DNA of 20,902 bases. It comes from a virus. The notes below the pieces were generated by a model that was not told the origin of the DNA, did not search any database, and saw only the letters and a list, made by a program, of their open reading frames with translations. The stretch spans positions 1 to 20,902 of IMG/VR virus record IMGVR_UViG_3300035698_024506; one strand, 5' to 3'. Shown in pieces: positions 1,398 to 17,509 of this stretch (within the stretch, counting starts at the first letter, position 1; each line of letters begins with the position of its first letter). Position numbers and translations under genes: made by a program.

Positions 1398-3652
1398 TAA
1401 CTAAGCCTTCCAGTTGAAGACACATTAAGTATGAAACCCTCTAATTGAAAGTCAGACCCAGCAACAGAAGCATCTAACATTTGAGTATCGCTTAAATAAA
1501 GTCTCAACTGGACACCATCTCCCTCTGTTGCGCAATAAATTCTATGCCACAACATGTCTTGAGACGCCTCTAAAGGAACCGTAGCGTAGGGATAGGTTTC
1601 TAATACATTTGTTCCTAGTATGGAACCTGAAACCATTCCATCATTAACCATTGAAACATTAGAAGAAGAAGCGAAGTAATCTACAGTTATACTTCCACTA
1701 GTGGTCTTCTGTACTCCGAAATCTATGCTATCAATTGAAACATTCTTACCTGTGCTTATAAATGGATTATATTTCTTAGTTAAAATATCTATACGCGAAA
1801 CACGAGCAATTACACCACCACCAGTATATGTTCCTGCAAAATCAGGTTCTTGAATAGTTATCTCGCCGACCGCTGTTGACGTAACTTGATAGATTTTATC
1901 ATTAATACCAGTAACACCTTGGCAGTTTGATATTTTAACAAAGTCATCTGTATCTAGATTATGATCTATAACAGCCATAGTAACTGTGTGACCAGCTCCG
2001 GCCGTAACATTCGTTGCTTGAAGTACACTTTCATTAGAAGAAATGTCAGTATCTATCTGGAAAACATATCCATGCTGATTTCCAGCTATAATTCTTCTAA
2101 ATTGAGGCTGTATTGTTCCACTATTCCATGCAAAATCAACTTCTTCCCATGTTAAATATGTAGAAGACCAAGTTGTTCCTGTCTGCTGCTCAAAAACACC
2201 AAAAGCTGTAATAGAATCATCATTAATAGCCCATGTTCCATCAATATAGTTATAAACTAGAACTTTATTTGGAAAAGTTTCTGCAAAATCATCTGAGCTA
2301 GAAGTTGGGAACGTCCAATAAACATTCTCTTTCAAATAATCTCTTATTCCAGCAACTCTAAGTGGACCGTCGTTATCGTTTCTAATCTCAAAGATTAAAT
2401 CAGATATTTCTTTGTCTATTCGCTCTACATTGGCTCCATTACAAGCGTGTATTCCAGTTGTACCTACAGTTAATACTGCCTTATCGAAAGGAACAGATGA
2501 AAATGTAGACTCCGAACCTAATTCAGTATTTATCTTTTGCCATATAAATGGTTGAACAGCGTTTCCAGTATATGCAAGCTCCCAAGTAGACCTCTCAAAA
2601 TAAACAATCAGCCTATCTTTAATGAATTCTGCTCCAATTATCTCTTCTTTTGTTGAAGCGTCTATCCATCCACCGCCAGTTGCACCAGCCTGATTTGGTT
2701 CATAATATGCACTTGCAGCTATAGGGCTACCGTTATGGGAAAACCTACAACGATTAGGATGTGCAGTATTTGTACCAACCCCACCACCACCATCATTTTC
2801 TATTGTATTTAGAAGTATAAGACGATCTTTAAATGGAAGAACAATCCTTGCTGTTCTTACAAAGTTTGCACCAACCAAGAATATAGGCTGAAAAGTTGTC
2901 CATCCAGTGATACCAGTTCCATCATAGCGCCACATTGGATCGTCTGTAGCAGCGGCTGGAACAGTGGCCTGAAAATTAGTAACAAACATTAGGTTTACAT
3001 CAGAAGTGGCTCCGCGCCAATTGGTTACTTTAAAGAAGTTTGCATCATCTCCATTGAATTGACTTCCTGCTGTTGGACCCATCCTTAACCATGAGTCTCC
3101 AGAGTATTGATAGGCAAATTGCGTATCAAAAGCTATTGCTGGACGATCATTTAATGTATTCGTTTCCCAGTTAACTAATCCCATTACAGATTCTGCTGGA
3201 TAGAAGTAGATTTGTGTATTGATAGTTGCACCAACAAAATTATACGCACCAGTTGTTGTATCAAGCGTCATGGTTGTAGCAGCACCAGTTGTATACATTA
3301 CGGCAGGTGTACCAGTTTGATAAACAGTAAAGATCTCTCCACCAATAGAAAAGAGCTGACCTATCTTAAATAGATTACCTGGAACAGTTCCATTAGCATC
3401 TCCAGATCCGTCTGTCGTTCCTACTTTAGCTCCACCAGTAAGTGCAATTCTCAGTCTAGAAAATAAAGGCTGTGTTAATGCGCTTGTCCACCCGGCACCA
3501 GTATAAAGAGAGCCAAATCTTTTTTTAATCTGGCCCTCATGAATGTATGCATTTTTCATTCTTGCAAAGGCATTCTCTGGAAGCATCCATGGCCGAAGAT
3601 CCGTTCTTAGGCCATCCTTAATAGGAGCAATTAAGAAACGGTTTTGTGCCAT
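1397..3652 (-). CDS. Large tail protein, probable tail nozzle/tubular-type
   Basis: 751 residues from the ATG at 3652 (MAQNRFLIAPIKDGLRTDLR). An in-frame ATG ten codons upstream is less likely: the 3652 start has an SD (AGGAA) and sits two bases after the stop of the upstream fibre gene. The start 'I..GL.TDLRPWMLPENAFARMKNA' with the following KKRFGS is typical in style of podovirus tail hub or nozzle proteins, where a short 'input data and rules' N-terminus leads into a beta-propeller-like body rich in W, G and aromatic strands. Around residues 540-605 there is an FCCH-like beta module (IDHNLDTDDFVKI, INDKIYQVTS) also seen in the structural protein at 5823-6809. Homology to P22 gp10 or T7 gp12 is a guess from size, order and style. 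Confidence 0.55.
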   Translation of the reverse strand: MAQNRFLIAPIKDGLRTDLRPWMLPENAFARMKNAYIHEGQIKKRFGSLYTGAGWTSALTQPLFSRLRIALTGGAKVGTTDGSGDANGTVPGNLFKIGQLFSIGGEIFTVYQTGTPAVMYTTGAATTMTLDTTTGAYNFVGATINTQIYFYPAESVMGLVNWETNTLNDRPAIAFDTQFAYQYSGDSWLRMGPTAGSQFNGDDANFFKVTNWRGATSDVNLMFVTNFQATVPAAATDDPMWRYDGTGITGWTTFQPIFLVGANFVRTARIVLPFKDRLILLNTIENDGGGGVGTNTAHPNRCRFSHNGSPIAASAYYEPNQAGATGGGWIDASTKEEIIGAEFIKDRLIVYFERSTWELAYTGNAVQPFIWQKINTELGSESTFSSVPFDKAVLTVGTTGIHACNGANVERIDKEISDLIFEIRNDNDGPLRVAGIRDYLKENVYWTFPTSSSDDFAETFPNKVLVYNYIDGTWAINDDSITAFGVFEQQTGTTWSSTYLTWEEVDFAWNSGTIQPQFRRIIAGNQHGYVFQIDTDISSNESVLQATNVTAGAGHTVTMAVIDHNLDTDDFVKISNCQGVTGINDKIYQVTSTAVGEITIQEPDFAGTYTGGGVIARVSRIDILTKKYNPFISTGKNVSIDSIDFGVQKTTSGSITVDYFASSSNVSMVNDGMVSGSILGTNVLETYPYATVPLEASQDMLWHRIYCATEGDGVQLRLYLSDTQMLDASVAGSDFQLEGFILNVSSTGRLS

Positions 3653-3654
3653 GA

Positions 3655-4215
3655 TTAAATTCCTATAGCAAGATAGTACCAATTTCTAGGACCGTTATCG
3701 CTAGCATTATAAACAGTCACCTTAGTTAAATCGTTGGATTGATAGTAAAGGGTTCCTGAGTCGCCAGAACCTCCCTTTCTCGTTACCAAAACATTATACA
3801 CAGCAGCAAAAGCAATAGTTGAATCAAAATTAACATTGGCTGAGGTGTTGGCGGCGACACTTGAGGTTCCCCATTTAATAAGTATTCCAGATGGAAGCCT
3901 GGTCCATCCATTAGCGTTCTGTGTAGACGAAGTAAATTCTGTAACTGTTCCGTCGCTTTCATTTCTAATGAACAATTCTGCGACACCAGAAAGCGCGGAT
4001 TGTTTCGCATAGATAGCTTTTTCATTTGCAGCAACTGTTACGTCCGCACCTTGCTCTGGAAAGCTAACGTGTTTGTGCTTTCCTTCATCTGCATCAGCAA
4101 ATGTCGCATGGTTAACTTCAATTAACGTCTGAATAGCTGCAAAGTTTCCTAGAATATCAGCTTGAGATTGTGATAGAAGGTCTCCGGCTGCTGGTATTGT
4201 GTTACTATATGCCAT
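3655..4215 (-). CDS. Short tail fibre with gp53-like C-terminal knob
   Basis: 186 residues, SD CAGGAA upstream of the ATG. The N-terminal 50 residues (DLLSQSQADILGNFAAIQTL, then GKHKHVSF) form a linker found in short fibre proteins that attach to the tail. The C-terminal 80 residues carry the signature of the gp53-like fibre knob: WTRLPSGILIKWGT, then a beta strand with FDSTIAFAAVYNVLVT, ending NWYYLAIGI. Such knobs form trimers that bind the host surface. The gene sits between the putative connector and the large tail protein. Receptor binding is inferred from the family; the receptor is unknown. Confidence 0.75.
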   Translation of the reverse strand: MAYSNTIPAAGDLLSQSQADILGNFAAIQTLIEVNHATFADADEGKHKHVSFPEQGADVTVAANEKAIYAKQSALSGVAELFIRNESDGTVTEFTSSTQNANGWTRLPSGILIKWGTSSVAANTSANVNFDSTIAFAAVYNVLVTRKGGSGDSGTLYYQSNDLTKVTVYNASDNGPRNWYYLAIGI

Positions 4216-4232
4216 AATTAATTCCTGTTCAT

Positions 4233-5201
4233 TTAAAATTTATCAAATGGTGCAGCTGAACCATCTACATAAATAGTAGACGTTCGTTCTTTTGTTTGTT
4301 GATCTATAGTTCTTCTATTGATTAATATTTCTTGCTTATTAAATTCAGGCATTATCAATGCAACACTTTCCATATCCATACGATCTTCAAATATCTTCTT
4401 TGCTGATCCATAGGCGATGTATTGCCACCACTGTGAGAGTTCGGGCATAGAAGCGGCATCAAGCAACTCTGCTGGTCTAACTGCAACTTCCAATTCAACC
4501 CTGTATGGCTGATCTGGAACAGGCCTAAAAGTTAAGTCATTATTGTAGTATAAGATTGTAGTTGGTTTTCCTGCAACGTAAGAATTGTGATGACTATTAA
4601 CACTGTATCCAACACCAGGAGCAGCATCAAAAGTTATATCATATACTCCGGTAGTATAATTAATCGTACTTGCTGCACCTACATCACCAGTGAATGTTCC
4701 AGTACCATCGTTTGGATCGTTTGGTACATCGCGCATTGTTAAACCGGTAGTATCGGTAGCAATAGATGAAAATGAGATATGATTTCTTAAAGAAGGTATA
4801 CCAGTAAGAGTACCTGTATAATTAACAGTAACTCCATCTCCAGTAGCAATTGATTCTATATTAGCTTGCTGTGGATATAACGAAAAAAACTGCTCACGAT
4901 TTTGTGTAAATAATTGCTTATATCCATCTACATATGAATTGTCATAAACGTTCGTATACAAATTATCAAAATTCGTAACGATGTCGTCATTTGAATATGT
5001 ATCTATGAATGGCTCTGTATAAAAAACTAAAGTAGTTCTTAGTGAGAATGTTCTTAAATGTTCAGGGAAATCATATAGAACAAATGAATTAACGTATTCA
5101 TCTATAGAATCATTAGATATCTGTGAAGTAGAAGGAGACCTAGTTAGCCTTCTAATCTTAATTCTTATTCGATCTAACGTAGAAAGAGTATTATCAGGCA
5201 T
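4233..5201 (-). CDS. Putative head-tail connector / tail accessory protein
   Basis: 322 residues, SD AAGGGGA before the ATG. The first 70 residues are helical and basic (RIRIKIRRLTRSPSTSQI, SIDEYVNSFVLYDFPEHLR), then a beta-rich middle with a possible loop domain (residues about 115-195), and a helical end with PAELLDAASMPELSQWWQYI and KKIFEDRMDMES. This arrangement resembles the adaptor proteins that dock onto the portal in podoviruses (P22 gp4-type), though it is longer than gp4. Its position between capsid genes and tail genes fits. I am confident it is a real virion gene, less so of the adaptor role. Confidence 0.5.
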   Translation of the reverse strand: MPDNTLSTLDRIRIKIRRLTRSPSTSQISNDSIDEYVNSFVLYDFPEHLRTFSLRTTLVFYTEPFIDTYSNDDIVTNFDNLYTNVYDNSYVDGYKQLFTQNREQFFSLYPQQANIESIATGDGVTVNYTGTLTGIPSLRNHISFSSIATDTTGLTMRDVPNDPNDGTGTFTGDVGAASTINYTTGVYDITFDAAPGVGYSVNSHHNSYVAGKPTTILYYNNDLTFRPVPDQPYRVELEVAVRPAELLDAASMPELSQWWQYIAYGSAKKIFEDRMDMESVALIMPEFNKQEILINRRTIDQQTKERTSTIYVDGSAAPFDKF

Positions 5202-5283
5202 TTCGAATCCCCTTTTATTTCAACTTATACATCCCAGTTATCTTTAATAGTATCAATCAAACTAGTAAAATTACTCAACACAA

Positions 5284-5718
5284 CTAGTAAATTTTCTCAA
5301 CATTAATGATCCTAGATGGTTCATTTACAAATTCATCTACATCCACAAACTCTAAACTCTGGAAACCAAAGCGTCTTACTTTTTGCCCTACCTTCATAGA
5401 TACAGCTCCTGTTTCGTCTTTTGTATAACCATGAACAGGATAACTTCCATTATTATTTAAATGTTTTGCTACACCCAAAGGCAACGTATAAACCTTACCG
5501 TCCATCAAAGTAAATGTTTCAACCTGGTCTTCTTTATATTTCTTATAAGAGAAACTTAGCTGACCACCAGGAACTTCATAAAACTTAAAGATCCCCTTAA
5601 CCTTTTCTCTATCTTTGTCTCTTTGAAACCTTAAATTAGGTTTCTTCTTTCTTGATGTAGCCTTTGTGGCAACTACTTCACTATCTTTTATCTCAACTAC
5701 TTCATTCTCTTTAGACAT
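5284..5718 (-). CDS. Conserved phage structural-region protein, unknown function
   Basis: 144 residues from the ATG at 5718, chosen because AAAGGG lies five bases before it; an in-frame ATG at 5793 lacks such a site and would add 25 residues of no clear character. The first 40 residues are charged and probably disordered (MSKENEVVEIKDSEVVA, then a basic KKKPNLRFQRDKDREK). The rest is a compact beta domain: GIFKFYEVPGGQLSFSYKKY, DGKVYTLPLGVAKHLN, and VRRFGFQSLEFVD. The pattern recurs in my memory of capsid-neighbour proteins of podovirus-like phages, but no function is known to me. It lies between the FCCH-domain structural gene and the connector. Confidence 0.55.
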   Translation of the reverse strand: MSKENEVVEIKDSEVVATKATSRKKKPNLRFQRDKDREKVKGIFKFYEVPGGQLSFSYKKYKEDQVETFTLMDGKVYTLPLGVAKHLNNNGSYPVHGYTKDETGAVSMKVGQKVRRFGFQSLEFVDVDEFVNEPSRIINVEKIY

Positions 5719-5822
5719 TTTAACCCTTTCTTTAATTGTTGATATGCGGCTTTCGAATACTGTCGGGAGCGTATGACTATACTCAAAAACCACATATCAA
5801 ACTTAGTCAATTAGATAAATCT

Positions 5823-12720: not shown

Positions 12721-13452
12721 ATGTTTAAGAAAAATCTAGTAAAGTCTCTGCTGGTTGTCTCTGTCTTTGCATCAAGCTCATTAGTTGCTATGGATTTCGA
12801 CAGAACAGAAGGTTCTGAAGTTATTGTTGAACTTAATAGATCAGAAGTATTTGTACCATCAAGACTCGGTGAGCTTTCAGTCGTTCATGATGCAGATGGT
12901 TTCCATGTCATAAAAGATGGTGCATGTCATAATGTTCCAAATCACTTTGTCTCTAAAGAGTTACGTGGCATCTCACCAATGCAACTAAATGCTTTCTTAG
13001 GTAGAGCAAAATATGTAGTTGTTGATGGCCAAATGATTGAGTTCACCAAAGTGTCCAAAGAAGAATTTGATGCTACTGTTGAAAAAGTTGAAGTTGTTGA
13101 TGCATTAGACATTGGATGTGATGTACAAGCAGAACTTAAATCTACATCTGGTTACGTTTATGTTAACCAAACGAGCGATGGTGAATATACATTGCAAGCT
13201 AAATCAAGACTTCTTGGTGGTGGACCAAGTTTTGGTTATGCAGCATATTGGGTAGCAAAAGTAGCTGTATACGGAGCAGGCGCTGCTGTTGCAGGAGCTG
13301 TGTTTGTTGGTACTTCTGCAGTTGCTGGTCCGATAGCTGGATATGTGGCCGCTAAAGGTACCGCAGCAGCTATTGCAGCACCTACCGCGGCAGCTGCAGA
13401 ATGGGTTGGAGTAGCGGCAGCAATAATCGTGTTTCATACACCTACTCCTTAG
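12721..13452 (+). CDS. Secreted protein with Ala/Gly-rich hydrophobic C-terminus (cargo gene)
   Basis: 243 residues on the strand opposite to the virion genes, SD AAGGA five bases before the ATG, stop TAG. Residues 1-23 form a signal peptide: basic start (MFKKNLVK), hydrophobic core (SLLVVSVFA), and a likely cut after SLVA. The soluble part (about 24-160) is a mixed alpha/beta region with two Cys (DGACHN, DIGCDV). From about residue 165 the protein turns into small-residue hydrophobic segments (AAYWVAKVAVYGAGAAVAGA, then GPIAGYVAAKG and EWVGVAAAIIVF), which look membrane-inserting. It has its own promoter and is followed by two micro-proteins and a terminator. Possible roles are envelope modification, exclusion of other phages, or a toxin; no family is recognised. 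Confidence 0.75.
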   Translation: MFKKNLVKSLLVVSVFASSSLVAMDFDRTEGSEVIVELNRSEVFVPSRLGELSVVHDADGFHVIKDGACHNVPNHFVSKELRGISPMQLNAFLGRAKYVVVDGQMIEFTKVSKEEFDATVEKVEVVDALDIGCDVQAELKSTSGYVYVNQTSDGEYTLQAKSRLLGGGPSFGYAAYWVAKVAVYGAGAAVAGAVFVGTSAVAGPIAGYVAAKGTAAAIAAPTAAAAEWVGVAAAIIVFHTPTP

Positions 13453-13871: not shown

Positions 13872-16205
13872 TTAATAACGACTATTATTGTCCCTAAACA
13901 TCGCTGGCATATTTCCTTGAGCTCCGTACATCGCCTTTTGATATCTTCTCTCTAAATCTTCTGCGCTTAGGCCGTCGCGAGTCTTAGGTAACGAGATACA
14001 TAGATAGCGCATGCAGTCTGAAAAATGCGAAGACCAATCGTGAAGCGCACAACTCTTATAGATCTTCTTCTTCTGATCATATTCTTGTCGATAGTTCTCT
14101 ATGGCTTTAATGAGTGGAGCGCATTTAGTCTGATCAATCCAAATCTTACTTAAAGCAGAACGAACAGCCTCTATTCCGTCCTCTATAGATATGGATGGGG
14201 CTATAGTGAAATTAATACCTAACTGCTTAGCTTTTTCCACTCTTGTCATACCTGAACCCCATTCCTTAACTCTAATGTCATGAGGGCCAATATGCTTTCC
14301 ATAAGAGTAAGGCTTCTGTTCTATAACCTTAACGTAATGCTCTAGACCTTGCTTCGAGTTCTCATAGCAATCTATTAACTTAACTGTCTGACCTATTGTC
14401 TGAAAGAAGATAATGGAAGTAGAGTCTCTAACTCCGATATCCCAGGCTGTGTGGACTTTAAACCCAGGCTCCCATGGCACAGGTCCTATTTGGTTGTTGA
14501 CTCGCATACGATCCAAATACTTAGCGTAATAAGCACCTTCTACACCTTGGGTAAAGCTACAATTATGAACTGCTCTTCCTGAAACAATATAACTTTCGTC
14601 ATATTGAACACTTAAATTATAAACACTTCCATCAAAGTTTTCGGACTTGATTGATATTATTTTAGCTGCGATTCCGTATTTAGCACGAGTTAACCAACTC
14701 ACTCTATCTCTATATTTTGTTAAAGATATTTGAATGGAATAAGATTCACGAGTGTTATATGTTTTTCCATGCGGGAACGTTACGGATCCTCCGCTTCTAT
14801 GTGTTATCCCAGCTGCATATCCAAGATTTAAACTATTTCCTAAAAATTGAATTTGATATGCAAGAGGTTTACTTGTTGTTGAAAACGAAAACTTCTCGCA
14901 TCCTTTGTGAACGCTGAAGCATCCGTCTCCCTTCATTAGTTCATGAAAAAAATCACTTTCATGTCCAAGGATAAGGTTGAATGGAATTCTTTTTTCGTAA
15001 CATATCACTCCACATGTTGATTTGAAAAAATCAACATAAAAAACAGAGTTAATTACAACGTTATTAACGTAATCTTTATCGTAAACAGTATGTTCGATAT
15101 TAAGAATATTTAGTAGCTCTTCTACTCTTTTTGATTTCGTCTTATTTATTGTAAATTGAACTCCATTTTTGAAGCAACTACCATCAGAAATATACCAAGC
15201 TAAAATCATGCATAATTCATATGAAATCACCATAATATTAGACAACAGCTTCTTGGGAAACACAACCCTATCCTGCAGTGTTATATCAATTGCTTTTTTC
15301 CAAACATAGGTCTGGGTTGATTGATTATATATTCTAATTGGATGTTCAGGGGTGCATCCTATCTCTTCGTAAGTACCATAAGTTCTTATTTTTATTAATT
15401 CGCCTGAATATTCTCGTTTATATAGTTTTTTTACGGCCCGCAATCTTCCAGAGTGTGAATAAACCAATTCATTAATCTTGATATCAGAAATATCTTTTAA
15501 TCCATATTGAGTTAAGACTTGTTGGTCTCCAGGGAAACAGAAATATTCCTGTTGGATCAAATCCTCTGACATGATTCCTTCAGCACGTTCCTTCTCTATA
15601 GCTGAATATGAAATATGCTTAGTATCATCAACTGAAAGCTTATATGCGAACCAATCTTGAGAGTTGAGAGCGATCTGAAAAAGCTCATATAGATTATTCT
15701 TTCCACGTGGAGTTGATACGAATAGTGCCCAACCGTCGTTAGCTGTAAGTATAGGACGTATAAACTGATAAGCCCTAGGGTCTTGAATAGCATATTCTGA
15801 AAATATACATGCGTATGGGTTACTTCCTACCAAAGAATCAACATTATCACTTCCAACAAGCTGTAGAAGTGAGCCATTAACAAACCTAATTTTCATCTCT
15901 TGGCTGTTAGTTGATATGATAAGTTCCTTGGGGATAAAATCTAGAAATCGCTTTCCTTCGTTCGTAACTGAATCCCAAATAACCTTTTTTGCCTGTGCGT
16001 ATGTAGGAAAAATATAGTAGACAACACAAGACTTCTTAACACATTGCCTTATGGCAAGATTCCATGCAACAATATCCTTCCCTGCTCGACGTGGAAGAAT
16101 GGCTACTACTCGCTTGTATCCTTTATTCTCAATGGCATCTACAATTGGTAACTGATAGGGACGTGGCTTAAATTCGTTTAGTATCTTTCTCGTTGCATAT
16201 TCCAT
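13872..16205 (-). CDS. terL: Terminase large subunit interrupted by an intein
   Basis: 777 residues, SD AGGAGA before the ATG. After removal of the intein (residues 223-548) a 451-residue terminase remains, the usual size. ATPase domain: adenine-motif region KPRPYQLPI (about 14-22), Walker A LPRRAGKD, Walker B region ACIFSEYA, coupling motif VSTPRGKN. Nuclease domain after the intein: HTAWDIGVRDST (Asp589), GPHDIRVKEW, and HDWSSHFSDCMRYL with the last metal-binding Asp. The enzyme drives DNA into the procapsid through the portal and cuts the concatemer. The intein lies in the linker joining the ATPase and nuclease domains, so packaging should depend on splicing. A diverged ATPase-only copy lies directly upstream and overlaps this start by 38 bases. 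Confidence 0.95.
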   Translation of the reverse strand: MEYATRKILNEFKPRPYQLPIVDAIENKGYKRVVAILPRRAGKDIVAWNLAIRQCVKKSCVVYYIFPTYAQAKKVIWDSVTNEGKRFLDFIPKELIISTNSQEMKIRFVNGSLLQLVGSDNVDSLVGSNPYACIFSEYAIQDPRAYQFIRPILTANDGWALFVSTPRGKNNLYELFQIALNSQDWFAYKLSVDDTKHISYSAIEKERAEGIMSEDLIQQEYFCFPGDQQVLTQYGLKDISDIKINELVYSHSGRLRAVKKLYKREYSGELIKIRTYGTYEEIGCTPEHPIRIYNQSTQTYVWKKAIDITLQDRVVFPKKLLSNIMVISYELCMILAWYISDGSCFKNGVQFTINKTKSKRVEELLNILNIEHTVYDKDYVNNVVINSVFYVDFFKSTCGVICYEKRIPFNLILGHESDFFHELMKGDGCFSVHKGCEKFSFSTTSKPLAYQIQFLGNSLNLGYAAGITHRSGGSVTFPHGKTYNTRESYSIQISLTKYRDRVSWLTRAKYGIAAKIISIKSENFDGSVYNLSVQYDESYIVSGRAVHNCSFTQGVEGAYYAKYLDRMRVNNQIGPVPWEPGFKVHTAWDIGVRDSTSIIFFQTIGQTVKLIDCYENSKQGLEHYVKVIEQKPYSYGKHIGPHDIRVKEWGSGMTRVEKAKQLGINFTIAPSISIEDGIEAVRSALSKIWIDQTKCAPLIKAIENYRQEYDQKKKIYKSCALHDWSSHFSDCMRYLCISLPKTRDGLSAEDLERRYQKAMYGAQGNMPAMFRDNNSRY
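14562..15539 (-). other. Intein with LAGLIDADG-type homing endonuclease
   Basis: 326 residues inside the large terminase (residues 223-548). N-terminal splice block starts Cys223 (CFPGDQQVLTQYGLKDI); block B GCTPEHPIRI has the Thr-x-x-His motif; the C-terminal blocks are VYNLSVQYDESYIVSG and the junction VHN with His547-Asn548, followed by Cys549 as the +1 residue. All residues for class 1 splicing are present. The endonuclease part shows two LAGLIDADG-type helices, LAWYISDGS (Asp341) and HELMKGDGCFS (Asp427), both with the acidic residue kept, so it may still be active. The ligated junction would read QQEYF-CSFTQG. Confidence 0.95.
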
Positions 16206-16914
16206 CTACTCTCCTAGGTTTCTTATTAATTTGAGTATCAAAGATGCAAAAATATTCTTGCTGAATTTGTTCTTCAGACATAATCCCCTCAGCACGTTCT
16301 TCTTCGATAGTAGAATAAGGTATGTGCTTCGTATCGTCTATTGAAAGTTTAGTAACGAACCAATCTTGATTGGCTAGAGCTGTCTTATATAGTTCATACA
16401 AATGGTTCTTTCCTCGTGGTGTAGATATAAATAGCGCCCATCCATCAAAGACTTTTAGTAAAGGACCTAAAAGCTGATGAACCTTTGGATCTTGGAGTGC
16501 GTATTCTGAAAATATGCAGGCCGCAGGGTTATTTCCTAACAAAGAAACAACTTTTTTAGATTCAATAAATTGAAGGAGTGAACCATTAGTAAACCTAATC
16601 TTCATCTCTTTATTATTGATCGACTCAACAAGATCTTTAGGAATGAAGTCCAAGAACCGCTTTCCTTCGTTAGTAACTGAATCCAAAATAATCTTTTTTG
16701 CCATGATGCGTGTCGGAAAGACATAGTAGACAACACAAAACTTCTTGACGCACTGCCTTATGGCAAGATTCCAGGCAATAATATCCTTGCCTGCACGACG
16801 TGGTAAAATGGCGACTACACGCTTATAACCCTTGTTCTCAATGGCGTCTACAATTGGGATCTGATAAGATCGAGGTTTAAACTCGCTAAGAATCTTTCTG
16901 GTTTCATACTTCAT
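16168..16914 (-). CDS. ATPase-only terminase large-subunit copy, ends at intein site
   Basis: 248 residues. Residues 1-223 align without gaps to residues 1-223 of the intein-bearing terminase, with about 55 differences by my count (about 75 % identity). Walker A (LPRRAGKD), the Walker B region (ACIFSEYA) and the coupling motif (STPRGKN) are all kept. Similarity stops after QQEYFC, whose Cys223 matches the first intein residue in the other copy. The next 25 residues (from IFDTQINKKPRRVDG) are not terminase and run 38 bases into the next gene. The nuclease domain is absent. The SD is weak (AGAG), unlike the strong site of the downstream copy. It could be a working ATPase-only subunit or a remnant of an intein-free terminase cut at the homing site. 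Confidence 0.85.
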   Translation of the reverse strand: MKYETRKILSEFKPRSYQIPIVDAIENKGYKRVVAILPRRAGKDIIAWNLAIRQCVKKFCVVYYVFPTRIMAKKIILDSVTNEGKRFLDFIPKDLVESINNKEMKIRFTNGSLLQFIESKKVVSLLGNNPAACIFSEYALQDPKVHQLLGPLLKVFDGWALFISTPRGKNHLYELYKTALANQDWFVTKLSIDDTKHIPYSTIEEERAEGIMSEEQIQQEYFCIFDTQINKKPRRVDGICNEKDTKRI

Positions 16915-16957: not shown

Positions 16958-17509
16958 CTAATTGCGTTGCTTTTCTATTTCGCTTTTCTCAAAAAGCATC
17001 AACAGTTTTAACTTATATTCTGGATGCCTAAGCTTTTTAATCGCCCTAAGTTCCATCTTTTTAATGTACTCGAATGACTTGCCTTGTTCCTTGGCTGTCT
17101 CTCTTAATGTTTTAGAATAGGTAGACCCAATCCCAAACCTTGAGCGCATTATAATATTTTCAATGGAAGTAAGTTTTGATTCTAAAAGTTCTGTCAGTAT
17201 ACAGATAAGCTCTTTATTGTATTGAAGTTTTTCATACGCAAGTTGTTTAGGCATATTTAATATAGAAGACAAAAGAGCAGCGTATCTCTCTGTTTTTGTC
17301 TCTTCCTGCCTAACTAATACATCTACAACGCTATTCAATAAAACAATGTTTCTAGACTCTGATGAATCATGAGCAAACTCTATGGTTACTTTCACACCAT
17401 CTTCAAGAACTATGTCTGCTATCTGATTACTTCTAGTGGAATCAATTGTGCTATTATACCGCAAATTAACATCTGCAACACATCCTGACCTATCTTGCAT
17501 CTTTAACAT
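16958..17509 (-). CDS. Sigma-70 region 4-like transcription regulator
   Basis: 183 residues, very strong SD (AGGAGAGGTG). Residues about 108-174 match sigma-70 region 4: SIENIIMRSRFGIG corresponds to the '..VLRMRFGI' helix of primary sigmas, TLRETAKEQGKSFEYIKKME to the helix-turn-helix, and RAIKKLRHPEYK to the 'KALRKLRHP' end. Residues 1-107 are not recognised (NLRYNSTIDSTRSNQIADIV, then charged helices) and contain no region 2, so it is not a complete sigma factor. Region-4-only phage proteins can recruit or divert host polymerase at late promoters, as in the RinA/ArpU-type late regulators near terminase genes. Its place between the small and large terminase genes suggests late-gene control, an inference. 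Confidence 0.75.
   Translation of the reverse strand: MLKMQDRSGCVADVNLRYNSTIDSTRSNQIADIVLEDGVKVTIEFAHDSSESRNIVLLNSVVDVLVRQEETKTERYAALLSSILNMPKQLAYEKLQYNKELICILTELLESKLTSIENIIMRSRFGIGSTYSKTLRETAKEQGKSFEYIKKMELRAIKKLRHPEYKLKLLMLFEKSEIEKQRN

Follow-up and report, generated by a model that had tools for sequence, protein, structure and literature searches.

The 20.9-kb viral contig analyzed here (the window) carries two adjacent terL reading frames. The shorter of them, B, is probably a decaying 5' stub from the terL of a related phage lineage, left by illegitimate recombination at a homing hotspot (probability about 0.6). The duplicate itself is real and unusual, and such a stub would, on our best call, be a variant of known phage mosaicism. 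B (16168-16914, minus strand, 248 aa) lies just upstream of A (13872-16205, minus strand), a terL gene interrupted by an intein. terL is flanked at one end by P22-like portal, head and tail genes and at the opposite end by RusA-, small-terminase-like and sigma-like genes. Relatives of the locus were collected with terL nuclease, ATPase and intein queries; the closest is L006 (90% identity for the terL nuclease, 92% for the portal).

A is composed of 222 ATPase residues (codons 1-222, 15540-16205), a 326-residue intein (14562-15539) and 229 nuclease residues (13872-14561 with the stop codon; relatives in phrog_2472 and other terL genes), all on the minus strand. The intein, residues 223-548, is inserted between extein Phe222 and Cys223, and the spliced junction reads QQEYF-CSFTQG. 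It matches Pfam Intein_splicing (E=3e-10) and LAGLIDADG_3 (E=3e-6), starts with Cys1 (CFPGD..), contains TPEHP and ends in AVHN before the +1 extein Cys; its endonuclease domain has two LAGLIDADG motifs with acidic residues (LAWYISDGS and LMKGDGCF). The 15 nt preceding the ATG of A (AACCTAGGAGAGTAG, 16206-16220, minus strand), which include the ribosome-binding site, are identical to the L006 terL leader at 14 positions. Because of this match we regard A as the native terL and B as having been placed upstream of it.

B aligns with codons 1-222 of A without gaps, with 500/666 nt identical (75%), and through Cys223 the two proteins share 168 of 223 residues (75%). This similarity is far beyond chance and bears out the original prediction of adjacent genes with an ungapped ATPase match about 25% different. 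That prediction had also placed the end of the similarity right at Cys223, the codon at which the intein begins. As the intein precedes the +1 extein Cys, the right comparison for B is spliced A, in which Cys223 of B pairs with the first post-intein residue. B reads QQEYF-CIFDTQINKK and the spliced family QEY[YF]-[T/C]SF[D/E/T/S]xGVEG; the match of B continues as C-I-F-D to codon 226, through the nearly invariant F225 and an acidic residue at 226. It ends at about 16237, at least 12 nt past the intein insertion point (16248/16249), and since B keeps these nucleotides beyond the cut region the exact-codon coincidence is unsupported. The terL-homologous part of B (16237-16914, minus strand) therefore consists of codons 1-226, a complete N-terminal ATPase domain from a second, divergent terL. 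Its non-terL tail (16168-16236, minus strand; 22 codons and a stop) crosses the illegitimate joint (16221-16236), a spacer of about 16 nt that resembles neither a B-type terL nor the L006 leader, and then the A leader and the first codons of A in a different frame. B has no RNase H-like domain of its own, the only nuclease-domain relative downstream being that of A. An intron or RNA account of the joint was dropped, as only these 16 nt or so separate the B homology from the A leader.

The joint was sought in viral contigs, bacterial genomes and GenBank phages, and no second contig has it. An assembly chimera of two co-occurring phages would fit a joint known from a single metagenomic contig, but it is very improbable: the end of B and the leader of A share no sequence that an assembler could bridge, and the gene order on both sides of the joint is that of L006. 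The gene upstream of B (16958-17509, minus strand), encoding a sigma-70 region 4-like helix-turn-helix protein, is missing from L006, where the corresponding slot holds three other ORFs. Protein identity to L006 is 67-69% in the left flank and 90-99% in the right (terL, portal, capsid). A break in divergence between the two flanks was considered and was not borne out: identity at four-fold sites is about 0.4-0.5 for terS, RusA and terL alike. Since these sites show no step, the gap in protein identity is attributed to faster evolution of the small genes, and for the same reason a swap of the entire left module is not visible. On the other flank, between portal and terL, an opposite-strand gene (12721-13452, plus strand) encodes a product in which a signal peptide is apparent and whose C-end is hydrophobic and rich in glycine and alanine. 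Comparable signal-peptide genes occur near terL in L067 (8535-9101) and L088 (3229-4821); the product possibly has a role at the host-cell envelope.

The position of B relative to A and L006 was examined with codon and protein models. Under the codon model, the topology with B outside (A, L006) has a lnL of -4643.7, compared with -4650.2 for A+B and -4651.5 for B+L006; protein trees give the same placement with modest support (70-87%). The best placement of B is thus as sister to A and L006 and not as a copy of A, in agreement with the proposal that it came from the terL of a second, related phage. The sister pairing of A and B, 6.5 lnL units worse, was rejected. It is the pairing expected of a tandem partial duplication of A within the same lineage followed by decay. 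Such a duplication would account for two close relatives standing adjacent in the same orientation, and for third-position identity between A and B that rises to 0.73-0.80 in codons 41-80, as if converted. We nevertheless hold it to be quite improbable, as B branches before the A/L006 split, L006 has no B, and nucleotide identity is as low as 75%. Codons 41-80 may reflect local gene conversion between A and B, a reading complicated by the L006 intein at 40/41.

Several observations suggest that B is no longer maintained as a terminase gene. The B branch has a dN/dS of 0.46 against a background of 0.02 for terL (LRT 29), rates that are rough since synonymous sites are near saturation; the value for B cannot be told apart from 1, its 95% likelihood-profile range running from about 0.12 to beyond 1. 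B has 42 residues changed in it alone, as against 8 for L006 and 6 for A; of the 42, 27 fall within residues 65-156, the most conserved segment of the family. The predicted fold is a complete ATPase domain up to its last helix (214-221; AlphaFold pLDDT 84.6), followed by predicted disorder in residues 227-248 (pLDDT <50), and its best PDB match is the P74-26 TerL ATPase domain (Foldseek E about 1e-12 to 1e-11, TM about 0.7). Intact ATPase motifs throughout had been claimed for B. This is correct for Walker A (RRAGKD), the catalytic Glu137 (CIFSE), STPRG and QEY, and B accordingly has the Walker A, Walker B/catalytic Glu and C-motif of a functional TerL ATPase. It is incorrect for the near-invariant GSDN (118-121), replaced by ESKK, and for Asn156, also lost. 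With G118, D120, N121 and N156 gone, B lacks family-invariant motifs as well as the strong purifying selection of a functional TerL.

These data also bear on the suggestion that B has been kept as an ATPase subunit without a nuclease, for example a regulatory or hetero-oligomeric partner in the motor, truncated at a natural domain boundary. The open frame, the fold complete to the last helix, the retained motifs and the lack of stops and indels are what this would predict. On the other side stand the loss of GSDN and Asn156, a dN/dS about 20 times the terL rate, and the lack in B of a ribosome-binding site as strong as that of A; moreover, an ATPase-only terL copy of B length is absent from the other relatives (about 200 loci). 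A kept subunit is thus disfavoured, and we consider it improbable. B has no stop codon, where about 3.5 would be expected if its 42 changes were neutral (P=0.03), and no indels, so it is perhaps not wholly unconstrained. From the substitution pattern, constraint on B appears strongly relaxed, possibly not to zero, or else the break is young.

To place the end of B in context we considered the inteins of the terL family, which occupy five sites: 40/41, 123/124, 164/165, 222/223 and about 399-402. The L006 terL (2932-5745) has two: a mini-intein of 138 aa within Walker A (40/41), and one of 348 aa and LAGLIDADG type at 123/124. Site 123/124 is also occupied in L018, L023, L039, L049 and L053, site 164/165 (C-motif) in L081, L082 and L077, and the nuclease-domain site (codon 399-402 or so) in L057, L058 and L090. 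Besides A, the site-222 intein is found in L066, L067, L120/L122 and L136; L006 has no intein there, and its +1 residue is Thr. The inteins of A and L066 are 74% identical and the flanking terL sequences 50-56%; that the intein is so much better conserved than the gene around it indicates horizontal spread. The +1 residue is Cys in all site-222 intein hosts and in B, and Thr in most intein-free relatives.

Such a mobile element could have produced B directly, if the site-222 endonuclease cleaved an intein-free terL (B) at the point of insertion and its broken end was then ligated right in front of A, which would have destroyed the site. The end of B is no more than about 4 codons away from the intein site of its genome (9/452 codons, or about 2% if ends were uniform), a chance that rises to about 10% if any of the five sites of the family counts. 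B has the +1 Cys of site-222 hosts, and cleavage of intein-free alleles whose flanks are 75% identical is known for some TerL inteins of mycobacteriophages (PMC5050341). The coincidence of the B end with the intein site is, however, partly a coincidence with the ATPase domain boundary, as both sit there. Strict cutting with resection should also leave nothing past the insertion point, where B retains its 12 nt or more; no B-lineage phage with an intein was found among the relatives; and other terL stubs, described below, end at codons without a known homing site. We therefore judge this strict form unlikely. The proposal that B escapes further cutting would hold only in part, because B keeps a near-complete target (QQEYFC) at the protein level; at the nucleotide level B matches at 14/20 positions to the left of the site and 8/20 to the right.

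Shorter leftover 5' ends of a related terL are present upstream of the full gene on three other contigs of the family. In L095 a stub of about 38 codons (4802-4920) ends 9 nt before the Walker A insertion scar and is separated from the full terL by an HNH gene. An HNH gene also lies between stub and intact terL in L088 (4957-5013, about 16 codons), and in L092 the stub (1145-1211, about 21 codons) is upstream of an intact terL without HNH. As the L088 and L092 stubs end away from known homing sites, terL stubs arise without site-222 cutting. An extra survey of about 80 loci yielded no further terL 5' stubs. HNH-type nuclease genes lie no more than 1.6 kb upstream of terL in 19/119 loci, a count in which some contigs were fetched twice, so that distinct contigs are slightly fewer.

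Four distinct relatives have a terL frame disrupted precisely at the Walker A codons, both halves remaining open: L075 (5703-5840, +1), L087 (2536-2700, +1), L095 (5687-5830, +23) and L120/L122 (312-420, -1). An HNH-type gene is directly upstream of terL in L087, L095 and L120. The 23-nt insert of L095 starts with a TAG stop and contains a UUCG hairpin, which is reminiscent of the bypass of T4 gene 60; the insert of that gene may have served as protection from a homing endonuclease (PMC5009743). We regard these breaks as candidate elements for frameshifting or bypass, located at a homing site.

The origin that we favour for B, a broken terL end from a related lineage, would have involved two related phages recombining illegitimately at the terL locus. 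A break in a B-type terL, or in a recombination intermediate, would have been followed by normal recombination on the 3' side of the intact terL, and the broken stub end would have become attached a few bases ahead of the ribosome-binding site of intact A. A would perform packaging once its intein splices out, and B, without terL constraint, would have drifted with its frame still open. Such an event would fit one-sided homing, or repair associated with a homing nuclease, at a known hotspot; it is plausible that the intein endonuclease of A triggered the breakage. As expected of one-sided homing, the stub comes from a recipient allele unlike the donor (25% different from A, and outside A+L006). 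It should also end at or before the cut, and B runs past it by the 12 nt or more given above. It counts against this origin that an intact B ortholog was found in neither viral contigs, bacterial genomes nor GenBank phages and that the flanks show no clear mosaic break. No left-flank relatives (small-terminase-like and sigma-like genes) with a B-type terL were found. In bacterial genomes the only terL nuclease-domain relatives are L147 and L148 (37-41%), contigs of a Simkaniaceae (Chlamydiae) MAG, a weak hint that related phages may infect intracellular bacteria. More tentatively, B could be a natural relic of intein homing that failed in an essential gene: the site-222 endonuclease would have broken the resident terL, and the phage would have come through because the broken half was attached in front of the incoming copy with the intein. 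We regard this as possible, with the odds against it; if true, terL stubs beside homing nucleases would be a record of repeated one-sided homing.

For B itself we expect a modest outcome, a decaying gene fragment. As a probable leftover it illustrates how elements that spread themselves remodel a gene essential to the phage, and a terL family with five intein sites, upstream homing nucleases and leftover 5' stubs is a good test system. Illegitimate homing repair is known from T4 laboratory crosses, and natural traces in an essential packaging gene would reveal how frequently homing fails and how phages survive such failures. For T4 introns, one-sided homing yields illegitimate junctions (Parker et al. 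1999, reviewed in PMC2988022). Repair that uses homology at one end of a break in a homing site and illegitimate joining at the opposite end would leave a stub beside the invaded gene. T4 is a laboratory intron system; here a single natural contig is the source from which break and cause are deduced, and the B stub extends past the expected cut.

Inteins in mycobacteriophage TerL proteins (TerL1-a..e, TerL6-f and Pham3880-g) resemble that of A in carrying homing endonucleases within the ATPase domain, g being at its C-terminal end (PMC5050341). These phages form another group with another terminase family, and the sections of that report used here describe no adjacent truncated terL copy. All mycobacteriophage terminase inteins were in the ATPase domain (PMC5050341), unlike the present family, which also has nuclease-domain inteins (codon 399-402 or so). 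The P74-26 TerL ATPase structures (PDB 4ZNI-4ZNL) have the same fold as that predicted for B; they derive from constructs of a full TerL made in the laboratory, whereas B is a natural ATPase-only ORF. Finally, the neighbourhood of phage terL, including its upstream region, is a hotspot for homing genes in ICP1 and other phages (PMC10448857). ICP1-type HEG islands and the present locus have in common that the terL neighbourhood is a hotspot of homing and genetic exchange; work on these islands stresses intact HEG-flanked genes and spliced introns, whereas here terL 5' stubs remain.
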